A DNA stretch of 64,000 nt. Source: Anaerolineae bacterium (GTDB lineage Bacteria > Chloroflexota > Anaerolineae > Aggregatilineales > UBA2796). Positions 2,603 to 41,162 of the stretch are shown here, piece by piece. Location: positions 62,001 to 126,000 of the forward strand of contig JAHBVJ010000022.1 in the NCBI GenBank assembly GCA_019637615.1, in the 5' to 3' direction. A model generated the notes under the pieces. That model did no database searches, had not been told where the DNA came from, and saw only the letters and a program-made list of their open reading frames with translations. The first letter of the stretch is position 1, and each line of letters begins with the position of its first letter. A program made the translations under genes and the position numbers.

Positions 2603-2702
2603 GCCTCAGCCCTCCACACGTATACACGTATGATGGGATTTCCTGCCATCAATTTTTACAACTTTTTTATCATGCCTTCACAAAACACAGACAATCAGCC
2701 TC

Positions 2703-2730
2703 TTGACTTCCTGCTGATCGCTGCTAGAAT
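2703..2730 (+). promoter_or_regulatory. Sigma70-type promoter of RNA element copy A
   Basis: TTGACT (2703-2708), 16-bp spacer, TAGAAT (2725-2730). The same TAGAAT box, with a TTGAcc or TTGAta box 17 bp away, sits at the matching place in copies B and C. No coding sequence with a ribosome site follows on this strand. Confidence 0.65.
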
Positions 2731-2736
2731 ATGAAA

Positions 2737-3028
2737 GCTACTCGTTCTATGTCTTGGTGGTAGCTTGGCGGCTCCGCTCAGACCAATGGAAACCGAGGAC
2801 AGCACACATCAGTGGTTGTCACCCCTCCACGCCAGTTACATGCAAGCGCCACACAGGTGCGTAACGGAGGGGGCTGCAATCTCATATCATACGAGCCAAT
2901 GTCAGGTCAACGTCATGCTCGTGCGGAATTTCCGCAAACCCCATTTCAGAACACGCTACGAAACATACGAATGAGATCGCCAATGATCCCATCTTCTCCT
3001 TAGCAATGGATCATTTCAGGGATCATTT
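2737..3028 (+). ncRNA. Candidate structured RNA, family copy A
   Basis: Noncoding stretch aligning over its whole length with copy B (9936-10222, minus) and at both ends with copy C (40826-41127, minus). It holds GTTCTATGTCT (2744-2754), a long interrupted helix (CCCCTCC 2822-2828 with GGAGGGG 2866-2872; GTTAC 2835-2839 with GTAAC 2861-2865), a 44-base block identical to copy B (2881-2924), the hairpin TGCGGA-ATT-TCCGCA (2922-2936) and a terminal hairpin AATGATCC (2982-2989) with GGATCATT (3008-3015). A second GGGATCATT lies at 3019-3027. The start near 2737 is inferred from the promoter. Function unknown. It may be a trans-acting RNA or a mobile noncoding element. Confidence 0.6.
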
Positions 3029-3048: not shown

Positions 3049-3918
3049 TCACACCTCGATCTGCATCCCATCGTACGCAAACTCGTAGATCGGCCTTCCG
3101 CCGGATTGCGCGGTCATCTGCTTGCCAAGCTGCTGGAACTGGTCGAATGTGAGCTGATCGGAGTGGTTGAGGTGCATGAACAGCACGCGCTTGGTATCGA
3201 TAGCCTTTAGCATCTCCATCGTTTCGACGTGGGTCGCCTCGCGGATCAGGATCGGATGGTCGGGCGGGATGTGCCGTTTGCCCGTCAGCGGATCGAACTC
3301 GAACACGCCCGCAGGCAGGATGGTCAGATCGAAGTTGCCGAGCCACGCGGGCGGCTCCCAGTTGTTAAGCTCGTCCATGCAGATTAGCACGCGGCGGCTG
3401 GGCGTCTCGAAGATGAAGCCGCACACGTAATCTTCCGCGAGGATGAACGGCGTGATCGTGCAGTCCCGCCACGTGATCTGCTTTCCGGTGGGCACGATCT
3501 GCATTGCCACCACGCCTGCCCGCTCAAGGTACGTCATACGCGTTGTCAGGTCATGATGCTGCGAGAACGTCTCCGCCACGCGTTCCGGCACGAAGACGGT
3601 GGTGCAGTAGCGTTTGGGCGACACCTGCCAACTGATCTCAGGGTCGTAATTCGCCTCGAATACCCGCGATCCAGCCGTGTGGTCGGGGTGCCAATGGCTG
3701 TATAGGGCGGCTTCGACATGGGCGATCTTGGCGCGGTTCAACTGGATGCTGCTTTCCTCCGGCGTATCGATCACCATGCTTAGGTCGTGGATGAATAGCG
3801 ATGGACAATAACGGGTATACGGTGCGCCCTTTTCACGCGCTTCGCTGCATGAAGGGCAAGTACAAAACGGACGCGGGACGGGATGCGCGCCGCCAGCGCC
3901 TAAGACTTCGATCCGCAC
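3049..3918 (-). CDS. PhnP-like MBL-fold metallo-hydrolase
   Basis: A 289-residue cytoplasmic protein of the metallo-beta-lactamase fold. HWHPDH at residues 75-80 is the dinuclear metal motif, and later Asp and His residues (MDELNN, LNHSDQ) fit the remaining ligands. CTCPSC near residues 19-24 resembles the Cys cluster of PhnP-type phosphodiesterases, which act on cyclic phosphate sugars. That resemblance suggests, but does not prove, phosphodiesterase activity. No phn genes are nearby. It is transcribed divergently from the glycosidase-like gene at 4072 and reads toward RNA element copy A. The 153 bp between the divergent genes shows no clear promoter to me. Confidence 0.85.
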   Translation of the reverse strand: MRIEVLGAGGAHPVPRPFCTCPSCSEAREKGAPYTRYCPSLFIHDLSMVIDTPEESSIQLNRAKIAHVEAALYSHWHPDHTAGSRVFEANYDPEISWQVSPKRYCTTVFVPERVAETFSQHHDLTTRMTYLERAGVVAMQIVPTGKQITWRDCTITPFILAEDYVCGFIFETPSRRVLICMDELNNWEPPAWLGNFDLTILPAGVFEFDPLTGKRHIPPDHPILIREATHVETMEMLKAIDTKRVLFMHLNHSDQLTFDQFQQLGKQMTAQSGGRPIYEFAYDGMQIEV

Positions 3919-8463: not shown

Positions 8464-9108
8464 ATGACTGAACTACCCGATCAACCCTCACCCGTTACGC
8501 CACCTGCCACGACTTCAGATGCACCAGCGCGTTTGAGTCCTGCGCTGGTGCTGTTCATAATTCTTCCCCTCGTCGGCCTGATCGCGGCGTTCATCGTCGC
8601 CAGCGGACGCGGGAGCAGCACGACCATCACGCAACAACAGCCACCACCCGTCACCTACATCCCCTACACGCTGATCAACAACCCCGCGCCGGACTTCACG
8701 CTGAACACGTTGGACGGCAAAACCATTAGCCTGAGCGATCTGCGCGGAAAATGGGTCTTCCTGAATTTCTGGGCGACATGGTGTCCACCGTGCGTAGAGG
8801 AAATGCCCGAACTGCAAAAGCTGCACGATGGCGGCTACGATACCGATCCCTCGCAGATCGTAGTGCTGGCGGTGGACAAAGCCGAGGATAAAGCACAGAT
8901 CGAAAAGTTCATGACCGCCAATAACCTCTCGCTACCCGTCGCGATGGACAGTGATAATGTCGTCAGTGGGAAGTACGTCGTGGTGAATTTGCCAATTACG
9001 TATATCATCGATCCACAGGGGATGGTGCGGGCGCAGCATATTTCGCCGTTGACCGCCGAGATCATCCCGCTGTTTCTGGATCGGATCAAGCAAAACAAGT
9101 TTTCATGA
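8464..9108 (+). CDS. TlpA-like membrane-anchored thiol-disulfide oxidoreductase
   Basis: 214 residues. One transmembrane anchor at about residues 28-47 is followed by a periplasm-facing thioredoxin fold. WCPPC at about residues 106-110 is the redox CXXC site, in the FWATWCPPCVEEMPEL context typical of the TlpA/ResA group. The cis-Pro loop is LPITYIID. Members of the group reduce apocytochromes or other exported Cys proteins; no cytochrome maturation gene is adjacent. The stop overlaps the next start by 4 bases (ATGA at 9105), so the two are translationally coupled. Confidence 0.9.
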   Translation: MTELPDQPSPVTPPATTSDAPARLSPALVLFIILPLVGLIAAFIVASGRGSSTTITQQQPPPVTYIPYTLINNPAPDFTLNTLDGKTISLSDLRGKWVFLNFWATWCPPCVEEMPELQKLHDGGYDTDPSQIVVLAVDKAEDKAQIEKFMTANNLSLPVAMDSDNVVSGKYVVVNLPITYIIDPQGMVRAQHISPLTAEIIPLFLDRIKQNKFS

Positions 9109-9878
9109 GCCTAGACATTGGTCGTGCCGTAACTTACCCGTTTGAGGATGCGCAGTGGCGTGCAAAGCTGCTGCCGCTGCTGATCTTGAGCTTCATCCCC
9201 GGCTTGAACGTCCTGACGTGGGGTGGCTACGCCATCAGCGTCGCGCGCAACCTGACGCGGCGGGAAAAATACCCGCTGGCGACATGGGACGAGTGGAGCG
9301 ATATTCTGGTGCGCGGGCTGCTGTCGTGGGTCGCTATGCTCGTGTACTTCTTGCCCGCGATCATCGTCGGCGGCTGCTTCCTGAGCCTCTCGCTCGTATT
9401 CGGGGAGCGCGTCGAGTCGTCTTCGTTCATCGCCATGCGCTGCTTGGCCTATCTGCTCTCCCTTGCCTATCTTTTCTTCACCAATTTTGTGCTCAACGCG
9501 GGGCATCTCAATTTCGTCCGCACCGATCAGTTCAGTGGCTATCTGGATTTGCCCGCCCGTTTTCGCGATCTGCGTCGCGGCGGTTCGCGCATCTTGACGT
9601 TGACCGTTTTGCAGGTCGTCCTCGTACTCCTGATCGGCCTGTTGATCATCGTTGGCGGGGTGGTGTTCCTCGTGTGTATCAACATCGCCGTGCGGACAGG
9701 TGGCATTGCCGTCGTCATCGTCGTGCCGATTCTGCTCATCGCGCTGGTCGCCTTGCTGGCGCTGATGACGCTGGCATTTCTGGCGCACGGTTACTTCATC
9801 GGCGGGACGAGCATCTTGATCGCACGTCAGGCTATGCCCGCGCCGGAGTCACTCCCCGAAATGCAATCTACGTCGTGA
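9105..9878 (+). CDS. DUF4013 polytopic membrane protein
   Basis: 257 residues with several hydrophobic helices and the N-terminal signature of DUF4013: D..RA..YPFED..W..K (about residues 4-20) followed by a helix and the GGY....RN motif. The function of this family is not established. It is coupled by a 4-base overlap to the TlpA-like gene, suggesting a shared role at the membrane. The C-terminal tail is short and polar. Confidence 0.85.
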   Translation: MSLDIGRAVTYPFEDAQWRAKLLPLLILSFIPGLNVLTWGGYAISVARNLTRREKYPLATWDEWSDILVRGLLSWVAMLVYFLPAIIVGGCFLSLSLVFGERVESSSFIAMRCLAYLLSLAYLFFTNFVLNAGHLNFVRTDQFSGYLDLPARFRDLRRGGSRILTLTVLQVVLVLLIGLLIIVGGVVFLVCINIAVRTGGIAVVIVVPILLIALVALLALMTLAFLAHGYFIGGTSILIARQAMPAPESLPEMQSTS

Positions 9879-9935: not shown

Positions 9936-10222
9936 ATGATCCTTAAAATGATCCCATACAGAGGAGCCAACGGGATCATTGCCGATCAATTCTCATGTTC
10001 CATATAGCGTTCTGAGATGAGAGTGATTGCAGATGGTCTGCACGAGCATGACGTTGACCTGACATTGGCTCGTATGATATGAGGTGTGTAGTCTCCGTTA
10101 CTATTACTAACGCACATGGGCGGTAACTGGCGAAGGAGAGTACACACCACTTTGTAGCTGCTATCGTATTTCCATTGGTCTGGGTAAAAGCCGCCAAGCC
10201 CGCCGAGACATAGAACGATAGC
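9936..10222 (-). ncRNA. Candidate structured RNA, family copy B
   Basis: Minus-strand copy of the element at 2737-3028. On plus-strand coordinates: the shared GTTCTATGTCT lies at 10206-10216; outer helix GTGTGTA (10084-10090) with TACACAC (10141-10147); then TCTCC (10092-10096) with GGAGA (10135-10139) and GTTAC (10097-10101) with GTAAC (10123-10127). The block identical to copy A is 10040-10083. The hairpin TGCAGA-CCA-TCTGCA (10028-10042) replaces TGCGGA-ATT-TCCGCA of copy A, a compensatory change. The terminal hairpin pairs AATGATCCC (9972-9980) with GGGATCATT (9947-9955), and a further partner copy lies at 9936-9942. Function unknown. Confidence 0.6.
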
Positions 10223-10228
10223 TTAAAC

Positions 10229-10257
10229 ATTCTAGCATAGCTCAATAAAAAGGTCAA
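10229..10257 (-). promoter_or_regulatory. Sigma70-type promoter of RNA element copy B
   Basis: On the minus strand TTGACC (10257-10252), 17-bp spacer, TAGAAT (10234-10229). The predicted start near 10222 puts GTTCTATGTCT just inside the transcript, as in the other copies. Confidence 0.65.
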
Positions 10258-39539: not shown

Positions 39540-40793
39540 ATGGACTCTGTGCATTCCAGAGCATATCGTGTGTATATCGTCTCCGAATTGTTAATGTCGC
39601 TGCTGCTCAGTACGATTTTTGCTGCCAGCACGTTGTTTCGCATTCAAATCGTCCAGATGACTCCACTACAACTGGTGCTCATCGGCACCGCGTTGGAGGC
39701 GTCGGCGTTCCTGTTCGAGATCCCGACGGGCATCGTGGCGGACAGCTACAGTCGCAAACTATCGGTGATCCTCGGCATCGGCACGCTCGGCCTCAGTTGC
39801 GCCTTGAGCGGCCTGTTTCCGATTTTCTGGGTACAAATCGTACTGCAAATCGTGGCTGGCCTCGGCTACACGTTCATCAGCGGGGCACAGCAGGCGTGGA
39901 TCACCGACGAAATCGGTGAGGAAGCCGCCGCCAAAGCTTTCATGCGCTCGTCGCAACTGGGCGCGTTCGGGTCGCTGACGGGCATCATCACCACGATCCT
40001 GCTCGGCAGCATCAACATCGCGATCCCAATCGTACTCGGCGGCGTGCTGATGGTGGCGCTGGCGGTGGTGATGTTCTTCGTGATGCCGGAACAGGGCTTC
40101 AAGCCGACTCCGAAGGGCGAACGCAGCACCTTCCAGCATATGGCGGGCACGTTCAAGGGCGGCCTCAAGGTGGTGCGGGGCAACCGCATCCTCGTGACGA
40201 TCCTCTTGCTGTCCGCGATCATGGGTGCGTGGAGTGAAAGCTATGACCGCATGGGAGAGATTCACTTCATCAACACCATCGGACTGCCGAGCATGTTCCA
40301 ACCCGTCGTGTGGTTCGGGCTGATGGGGATCGTCGGGATGCCCATCCACCTGATCGTGACCGAGATCGCGCGCCGTCGGTTGAAGACGGATAACCATCAG
40401 CGGGTGGTGCGCATCTTGATGAGCCTCGAAATCCTGCTGATCATCAGCGCAGTGACATTCGCGCTGGCGGGCAACCTGCTGGTCGCCTACATCGCCTCGT
40501 TGATCATCGGTCTGGTGCGCAGTGTCGGTGGGCCGATCCGTATGGCATGGCTGAACCAGCATGTGCCGTCCGAGGTGCGGGCGACCGTGATCTCGATGGA
40601 CAGCCAAGCGAACGCCATCGGGCAGATCGCGGGCGGGCCAATCTTCGGCGCGGTGGGCAACTACTCACTGCGGGCGGCGCTGACGCTCGGCGCGGTGCTG
40701 CTGGCTCCGGGGCAGTGGCTGTACTGGCGGTCGCTGAAGGAAGACATCACCGTGTCGCCGGAAGTGGTGGAGGCCGTCGCTGCGGAGGCGTAA
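39540..40793 (+). CDS. MFS transporter
   Basis: 417 residues, about 12 transmembrane helices. FEIPTGIVADSYSRKLSVILG (about residues 60-80) is the G-x-x-x-D-x-x-x-R-K loop between helices 2 and 3, in a form common to drug or metabolite exporters of the DHA type. A cytoplasmic middle loop (FKPTPKGERSTFQHMAGTFKGGLKVVRGN) separates two six-helix halves. AGG touches the ATG at 39540, so the GTG at 39549 is an alternative start at better spacing. Substrate unknown. The nearest promoter is at 39242. Confidence 0.88.
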   Translation: MDSVHSRAYRVYIVSELLMSLLLSTIFAASTLFRIQIVQMTPLQLVLIGTALEASAFLFEIPTGIVADSYSRKLSVILGIGTLGLSCALSGLFPIFWVQIVLQIVAGLGYTFISGAQQAWITDEIGEEAAAKAFMRSSQLGAFGSLTGIITTILLGSINIAIPIVLGGVLMVALAVVMFFVMPEQGFKPTPKGERSTFQHMAGTFKGGLKVVRGNRILVTILLLSAIMGAWSESYDRMGEIHFINTIGLPSMFQPVVWFGLMGIVGMPIHLIVTEIARRRLKTDNHQRVVRILMSLEILLIISAVTFALAGNLLVAYIASLIIGLVRSVGGPIRMAWLNQHVPSEVRATVISMDSQANAIGQIAGGPIFGAVGNYSLRAALTLGAVLLAPGQWLYWRSLKEDITVSPEVVEAVAAEA

Positions 40794-40825: not shown

Positions 40826-41127
40826 AATGATCCCTGAAATGATCCCGTTGGCTGCTGCTGACGGGATCATTGTGATCGATTCTGTGTTCCTCTTTGTGTT
40901 CTCATGATCCCAGTCTTGCCAGTGGTTGGGCGGAACCGCGATTCCCTTTCATCCGAGCAAGCTACAGACTGCAACTGACTATTGGATGATGGCTGCTCAT
41001 TGGCGCGAGGAAGGCGACAAGGCGTTGGTTTGAACAGTCGATCACCACTAGTTGTTAAGGTGCGTGTCCAGCGGTCTAACGGAGGCCGAGACGCCATCCC
41101 AGTGATTCCGTAGACATAGAACAATGT
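40826..41127 (-). ncRNA. Candidate structured RNA, family copy C (diverged)
   Basis: Minus-strand element with the same architecture as copies A and B but little identity in the middle. Kept features: promoter at 41134-41162, GTTCTATGTCT (41112-41122 on the complement), GTTA...TTAAC arms at the place of the GTTAC/GTAAC helix, a GGAA...TTCC hairpin where A and B have theirs, and the terminal hairpin AATGATCCCGT (complement of 40861-40871) with ACGGGATCATT (complement of 40838-40848), 11 perfect pairs. A second GGGATCATT (complement of 40826-40834) follows, as in copies A and B. Retention of ends and pairing with loss of sequence suggests an older family member. Confidence 0.5.
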
Positions 41128-41133
41128 ACCAAC

Positions 41134-41162
41134 ATTCTACGATATATAGAACGGATTATCAA
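41134..41162 (-). promoter_or_regulatory. Sigma70-type promoter of RNA element copy C
   Basis: Minus strand: TTGATA (41162-41157), 17-bp spacer, TAGAAT (41139-41134). TAGAAT is identical in all three copies. Confidence 0.6.

Follow-up and report, generated by a model that had tools for sequence, protein, structure and literature searches.

A species-restricted family of dispersed, promoter-bearing elements with a conserved RNA fold in an Anaerolineae genome

Results and discussion

The genome of an Anaerolineae bacterium carries dozens of intergenic copies of an element with a conserved promoter, upstream 11-bp repeats and a conserved covarying fold, generally placed convergent to the next gene and with no dead copies among them. 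The data demonstrate selection on an RNA at many loci. With roughly even probability, these copies constitute a lineage-restricted and very large paralogous family of small RNAs that is driven by a response regulator and probably acts in trans or as part of a ribonucleoprotein (RNP).

Three paralogous elements within 64 kb

The window, i.e., the whole stretch of 64,000 nucleotides that was analysed, contains three elements, A (2703-3028, + strand), B (9936-10257, − strand) and C (40826-41162, − strand). All three had been reported in a first-pass annotation of this DNA, and each was recovered at those coordinates, between genes. The shared promoter form was borne out (TTGACT-N16-TAGAAT in A, TTGACC-N17-TAGAAT in B and TTGATA-N17-TAGAAT in C), and the window has precisely three occurrences of GTTCTATGTCT, one in each copy, with an expectation of 0.37 in shuffled sequences when up to one mismatch is allowed. 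The 44-base block common to A and B is exact (2881-2924 equals 10083-10040), and A, B and C all contain the terminal hairpin ATGATCCC...GGGATCAT with a third GGATCAT after it. The features of the three elements and their convergent genes are as follows:

2653..2692, + strand: copy A, putative site for a response regulator of the OmpR/PhoB type; four 7-mers with an 11-bp period, upstream of the promoter
2703..2730, + strand: copy A, promoter TTGACT-N16-TAGAAT, recognized by sequence
2737..3027, + strand: copy A, predicted RNA, with the start placed approximately 7 nt after the −10; covariance model match at 2731-3027, 289 bits
2766..2770, + strand: copy A, pseudoknot arm 1, TGGCG in the 5' hairpin loop, pairing with 2830-2834
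2830..2834, + strand: copy A, pseudoknot arm 2, bulge CGCCA, pairing with 2766-2770
2881..2924, + strand: 44-base block identical in A and B, holding an ACGAGC...GCTCGT helix (sequence and pairing test)
2983..3026, + strand: copy A, 3' module; ATGATCC arm, GGATCAT arm, 4-nt spacer and third GGGATCAT
9936..10257, − strand: copy B; promoter 10257-10229, predicted RNA ~10222-9936, 3' module 9979-9936
40826..41162, − strand: copy C, distant member; promoter 41162-41134, GTTCTATGTCT hairpin and 3' module kept, middle different
3049..3918, − strand: gene convergent to A, MBL-fold hydrolase; stop codon ~21 nt from the hairpin
9105..9878, + strand: gene convergent to B, membrane protein
39540..40793, + strand: gene convergent to C, MFS-type transporter, by inspection

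The scores from the family covariance model make A (289 bits) and B (247 bits) close paralogues and C (68.9 bits, E value of 6.7e-18) a distant one that has the 5' hairpin and the 3' end in common with them and differs in the middle. Relative to dinucleotide shuffles, the folding of A and B gives z scores of −4.0 and −2.8, whereas that of C alone is not outstanding (z of −1.0).

Size and divergence of the family

The expectation of dozens of copies per genome proved right, as the host genome (8.2 Mb in 76 contigs, with an estimated completeness of 85% and contamination of 6.9%) contains 36 full-length copies. For one protein encoded in the window, the nearest named relatives belong to Anaerolineae/Aggregatilineales MAGs of the Chloroflexota. 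A blast search with copy A retrieved approximately 31 near-complete and 10 partial copies. The covariance model, built on an alignment of the 36 copies, returned 36 full-length matches above 180 bits, followed by a gap and then by about nine weaker full-span matches. Window copy C (69 bits) is among the latter, as are L084, L038 and L036, and some of this group belong to other body types with nothing but the two ends in common. The copies are scattered across most contigs, and none are in tandem.

Among the type I copies, as members of this family are termed here, the median pairwise identity is 67% and the highest is 86%, so that no near-identical pair was found, and no dead or degraded copy was found among the 36. 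Because the copies differ by a median of 33%, selection acts on many separate loci.

A conserved fold with a covarying pseudoknot

Pairing was tested over 15 hand-defined helices, comprising 56 pairs, in the 36 copies. Standard pairs fill 94.5% of all cells, and two-sided changes occur in 25 pairs, versus 11.3 ± 2.1 after shuffling and 6 to 13 when the partner strand is slid by 1 to 3 columns. The covarying helices in further copies, which the first-pass annotation had named as evidence that would support it, are present. Individual copies retain 79 to 100% of the pairs, and in 26 of the 36 the number retained exceeds what would be left if the stem changes of that copy were placed at random; the unpaired regions are 16 to 45% off consensus.

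Among single covarying features the best is a pseudoknot in which the UUGGCG loop of the 5' hairpin pairs with a CGCCA bulge. This helix is 97% paired over the 36 copies, and three of its five pairs have changed on both sides, with the compensated forms UUGACG/CGUCAG, UUGGUG/CACCAG and UUGGCA/UGCCAG or UGCCAA.

Promoters and upstream 11-bp repeats

Of 32 aligned copies, 31 have the motif TTGAC and 31 have TAGAAT, with a spacing of 16 to 17 bp. Three different-looking blocks lie just upstream of the −35, every one with direct repeats of an 11-bp period; in copy A the 7-mers are arranged as TTTTTAC-AACT-TTTTTAT-CATG-CCTTCAC-AAAA-CACAGAC (2653..2692). Over 24 non-redundant upstream regions, the self-match at lag 11 is 0.373, compared with 0.288 ± 0.013 in shuffled sequences (z of 6.3; 0 of 1000 as high), and lag 22 ranks second. 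An 11-bp direct repeat is a usual form of the sites of OmpR/PhoB-type response regulators. The site of CiaR, an OmpR-family regulator, is such a repeat, TTTAAG-N5-TTTAAG (PMC8186281). A link to the phosphate regulon was discarded, as the PstS-like genes of the host genome lack matching boxes, and therefore no named regulator is claimed.

An extra ATGATCCC is found approximately 60 nt upstream of the −35 in L015, L017, L019, L022-L025, L027 and L028. Because it marks the upstream border in this one group of copies, it gives them, together with the 3' end, the look of an inverted repeat.

A 3' module shared with unrelated elements

The 3' module has the form ATGATCCC-N16-GGGATCAT-N4-GGGATCAT, spans 44 to 45 nt overall and is present by exact pattern in at least 102 copies in the host genome, where a reversed control pattern gives zero matches; the exact pattern is likewise absent from 12 relatives. 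It ends the type I RNAs, their distant members and a sequence-unrelated repeat, type II. The 3' hairpin is consequently not confined to the family, as had been supposed, and many other elements end in the same hairpin, a situation that fits a mobile role and a termination role equally well.

The hairpin had also been called a terminator, but no U-tract or T-run follows it, and a terminator scan does not report it. Since the U-tract is lacking, any role in termination is putative. What stands of the first-pass description is a multicopy, promoter-bearing, structured noncoding RNA with covarying helices; its 3' hairpin does not qualify as an ordinary intrinsic terminator, and transcription itself is predicted from sequence features.

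The hairpin loop is inverted in several copies, and template switching in palindromes can produce inverted hairpin loops. In L008, L009, L035 and L088, the loop of the ATGATCCC hairpin is seen either as GTTCGCTCCTCAAC or as the reverse complement of this sequence, and some copies are hybrids.

The type II repeat, GCCTGTTTTTGCCTGTTA...TATCAGGCAAAACAGG, was found 35 times in the host genome (L085, L086, L094, L109, L131 and ~30 others, e.g., G000:C2:49943-50149). Its CCTGTT direct repeats are able to form a long hairpin and are followed by a Shine-Dalgarno sequence, an ATG, a short open reading frame (ORF) without conserved sequence and the ATGATCCC hairpin end. A Shine-Dalgarno sequence and start codon stand ahead of the hairpin in 19 of the 35, versus 1.9 expected. 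In L102 and L136, the sequence upstream of the 3' module is a further body type, CTGAGTCTGATAAG...GCCGAAACAGATCGACAGG, which bears what seems a superficial likeness to a hammerhead-type core and contains CACCTTAACAnC, common to other distant members. Short interspersed TTAGCACTCAGCACTAAGGACT repeats with a 7-bp period are often situated just ahead of the 3' hairpin, at many loci (e.g., L138 and L143).

Gene neighbourhood and coding potential

The gene downstream of type I copies is convergent in 28 of 30 cases (one-sided binomial, ~4e-7), and its stop codon is usually 4 to 200 nt from the hairpin. Type II repeats display no convergent bias (20 of 34), and their hairpin precedes a same-strand gene in 14 of 34 cases. 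In search of a linked partner gene, neighbours on the right (86) and on the left (79) were scanned with Pfam, which retrieved diverse families, each present in three neighbours at most, and no transposase or reverse transcriptase (RT) family is enriched among the neighbours of ~90 copies. Such diverse and ordinary neighbours are expected if the copies are stand-alone RNA genes.

Two further candidates were rejected. Protein coding was discarded because the long ORFs across the 3' hairpins are, by codon usage, mostly antisense shadows of the convergent genes. A role as cis-antisense guide for the adjoining gene was discarded because complementarity to the copy's own gene equals that with other genes, without excess.

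Absence from known RNA families and from relatives

No known RNA family had been recognized in the first-pass annotation, and Rfam agrees, with zero matches at gathering score in the window. For the element itself, nothing was found up to an E value of 0.5, and one meaningless partial match (E value of 0.99) lies outside it. The element is neither coding sequence nor a known insertion element. Group II intron, 6S, HEARO and retron RNA were each considered and dropped, being without Rfam or positional support.

Copies had been expected in related Chloroflexota, an expectation that failed in the samples of the same genus, family, order, class and phylum. Searches by blastn, two covariance models and patterns, from the same genus to the phylum and in phages, viral contigs and GTDB contigs, returned only chance-level fragments. 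The relatives searched form overlapping samples of 60 and 100, with 38 at sensitive settings, 395 others of the class and 399 others of the phylum; in these class and phylum searches few candidates were scored per genome, and for this reason very divergent homologues would be missed there. A pattern scan of 84,980 species genomes gave no credible match outside the host. In a genome of the same genus, a 385-kb sample holds no dispersed repeat like this RNA family, and another gene directly follows the orthologue of copy B's convergent gene. The lack of the family in that genome is odd for so large a regulatory set.

A regulatory family and its alternatives

As a regulatory family, each copy would be a small-RNA gene with its own sigma-70-type promoter, producing a compact RNA of ~290 nt. 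This RNA would comprise a long 5' hairpin with its loop pseudoknotted to a downstream bulge, a variable central hairpin, two more hairpins, a single-stranded AGAAC/GAACA stretch and the fixed 3' hairpin module. The tandem repeats just upstream of the −35 would be read by one or more OmpR/PhoB-family response regulators, so that a single signal would switch on dozens of loci together. Action of the RNAs may be in trans: they could regulate by base pairing, or they could provide the RNA of a common RNP or of a protein sponge, and the part that binds protein in all of them would be the invariant pseudoknot core plus the 3' module. Within this reading, we infer that the copies are transcribed, that a regulator drives them, that the RNAs act in trans and that they have a binding partner. 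It explains the promoters, the repeats, the intact copies and the unrelated neighbours, but does not by itself explain the single-species burst and the shared 3' module.

Those two features are explained by the main rival, a non-autonomous mobile element of the SINE or MITE type, which is considered a possible but somewhat unlikely origin. The shared 3' module (AGAAC...ATGATCCC hairpin plus GGGATCAT) would then be the recognition end for a mobilizing enzyme acting in trans, the type I, type II and other bodies would be different passengers with the same end, and the convergent bias would reflect selection against promoter read-through into same-strand genes. Restriction to one species with none in the same genus, dispersal over most contigs, the fixed spacing with which the same 3' end closes sequence-unrelated elements, the ATGATCCC at the upstream border of several copies, and the gene that directly follows the orthologue of copy B's convergent gene in the same-genus genome are all in its favour. 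A mobile origin does not account for the absence of recent or dead copies, with no type I pair above 86% identity, nor for promoters and compensatory changes maintained throughout; moreover, no target-site duplication is visible by eye, where element borders are uncertain, and the neighbours lack an enriched transposase or RT family. Both explanations may apply, the elements having spread first and been kept later. A bacterial counterpart of SINEs, with over 100 self-transcribed elements of several unrelated bodies and one 3' end, copied by an enzyme in trans and partly domesticated, with dozens kept functional by selection, is a more speculative proposal and appears quite unlikely.

A role as the RNA component of an enzyme that is RNA guided or RNA templated and works in trans (a retron RT, a TnpB/IscB-like nuclease or another) is improbable. 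The compact pseudoknotted fold with a variable central loop would suit such a role, and the one retron-type RT and three TnpBs of the genome could serve RNAs in trans. However, HEARO, group II introns and the other Rfam families yield no match, the RT and TnpB loci are without a family RNA within the fetched flanks, neither end of the RNA has a guide-like variable segment, and there is no excess match to the adjoining gene. Equally improbable is a unit at the DNA or 3'-UTR level, in which the hairpin, as a repetitive extragenic palindrome or as a bidirectional 3'-end element belonging to the convergent gene, would be the working part and everything else accessory. The position of the hairpin after the convergent stop codon in 28 of 30 type I cases, the precise 44- to 45-nt layout of at least 102 exact copies, and the loop found in both orientations, as in small hairpin inversions, are consistent with it, but the covarying body, the pseudoknot, the promoter and the 11-bp repeats are left unexplained, type II hairpins stand before same-strand genes in 14 of 34 cases, and a U-tract is absent in either direction.

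Comparison with known systems

The csRNAs of streptococci are likewise several homologous RNAs with their own promoters and an OmpR-family regulator acting on a repeat of 11-bp period, but number five copies in Streptococcus pneumoniae, versus at least 36 here, and differ in repeat sequence, with no sequence relation seen (PMC8186281). In contrast to csRNAs, the host family has a large pseudoknotted body and no U-tract after the 3' hairpin. FopS, a set of 14 multicopy sibling small RNAs of Bacteroides, is similar in its many dispersed paralogues per genome; its 14 members are conserved across the Bacteroidaceae, whereas at least 36 occur here in one species, and phylum and fold differ (PMC11697453). 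MITEs and REP elements are also dispersed intergenic repeats with a palindrome, but the host family has a conserved promoter and a covarying fold, and neither a transposase partner nor near-identical copies were found for it. The 6S RNA (RF00013) is a regulatory RNA of a similar order of size that does not match the host family.

If transcribed, the host family would be a paralogous regulatory-RNA family much larger than FopS and the csRNAs, every copy being conserved in fold despite a median sequence difference of 33%, and the whole family being found in a single species. It raises the questions of why dozens of sibling RNAs are kept, how new structured RNAs arise and spread in a genome, and whether RNA-borne repeats with a common 3' end exist in bacteria. 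The covarying pseudoknot offers a ready model for structure work.

Other RNA and repeat features of the host genome

The sole RT found in the genome (G000:C8:9303-9836; L144) is of the retron type (PADLOC, RT_III-A best), with an SPFH-type protein encoded upstream and no recognized noncoding RNA. No family RNA lies within the fetched flanks of this RT or in those of the three TnpBs, where a retron-like or omega-RNA-like location was looked for, and no HEARO match was obtained. A separate, true 6S RNA gene is situated close to one family copy (L028:3001-3181, − strand; 67.1 bits, versus a 46.4-bit cutoff). Sub-threshold matches to Acido-Lenti-1 (RF01687; 28 to 30 bits, versus a 37-bit cutoff) lie near some copies, at L017:1279-1325, L030:1274-1320, L084:1353-1399 and L102:1986-2032. 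A repeated hairpin pair, GAGTCCC...GGGACTTCGT...CGACGTTTCAACGTCGGG, is common in the host genome.
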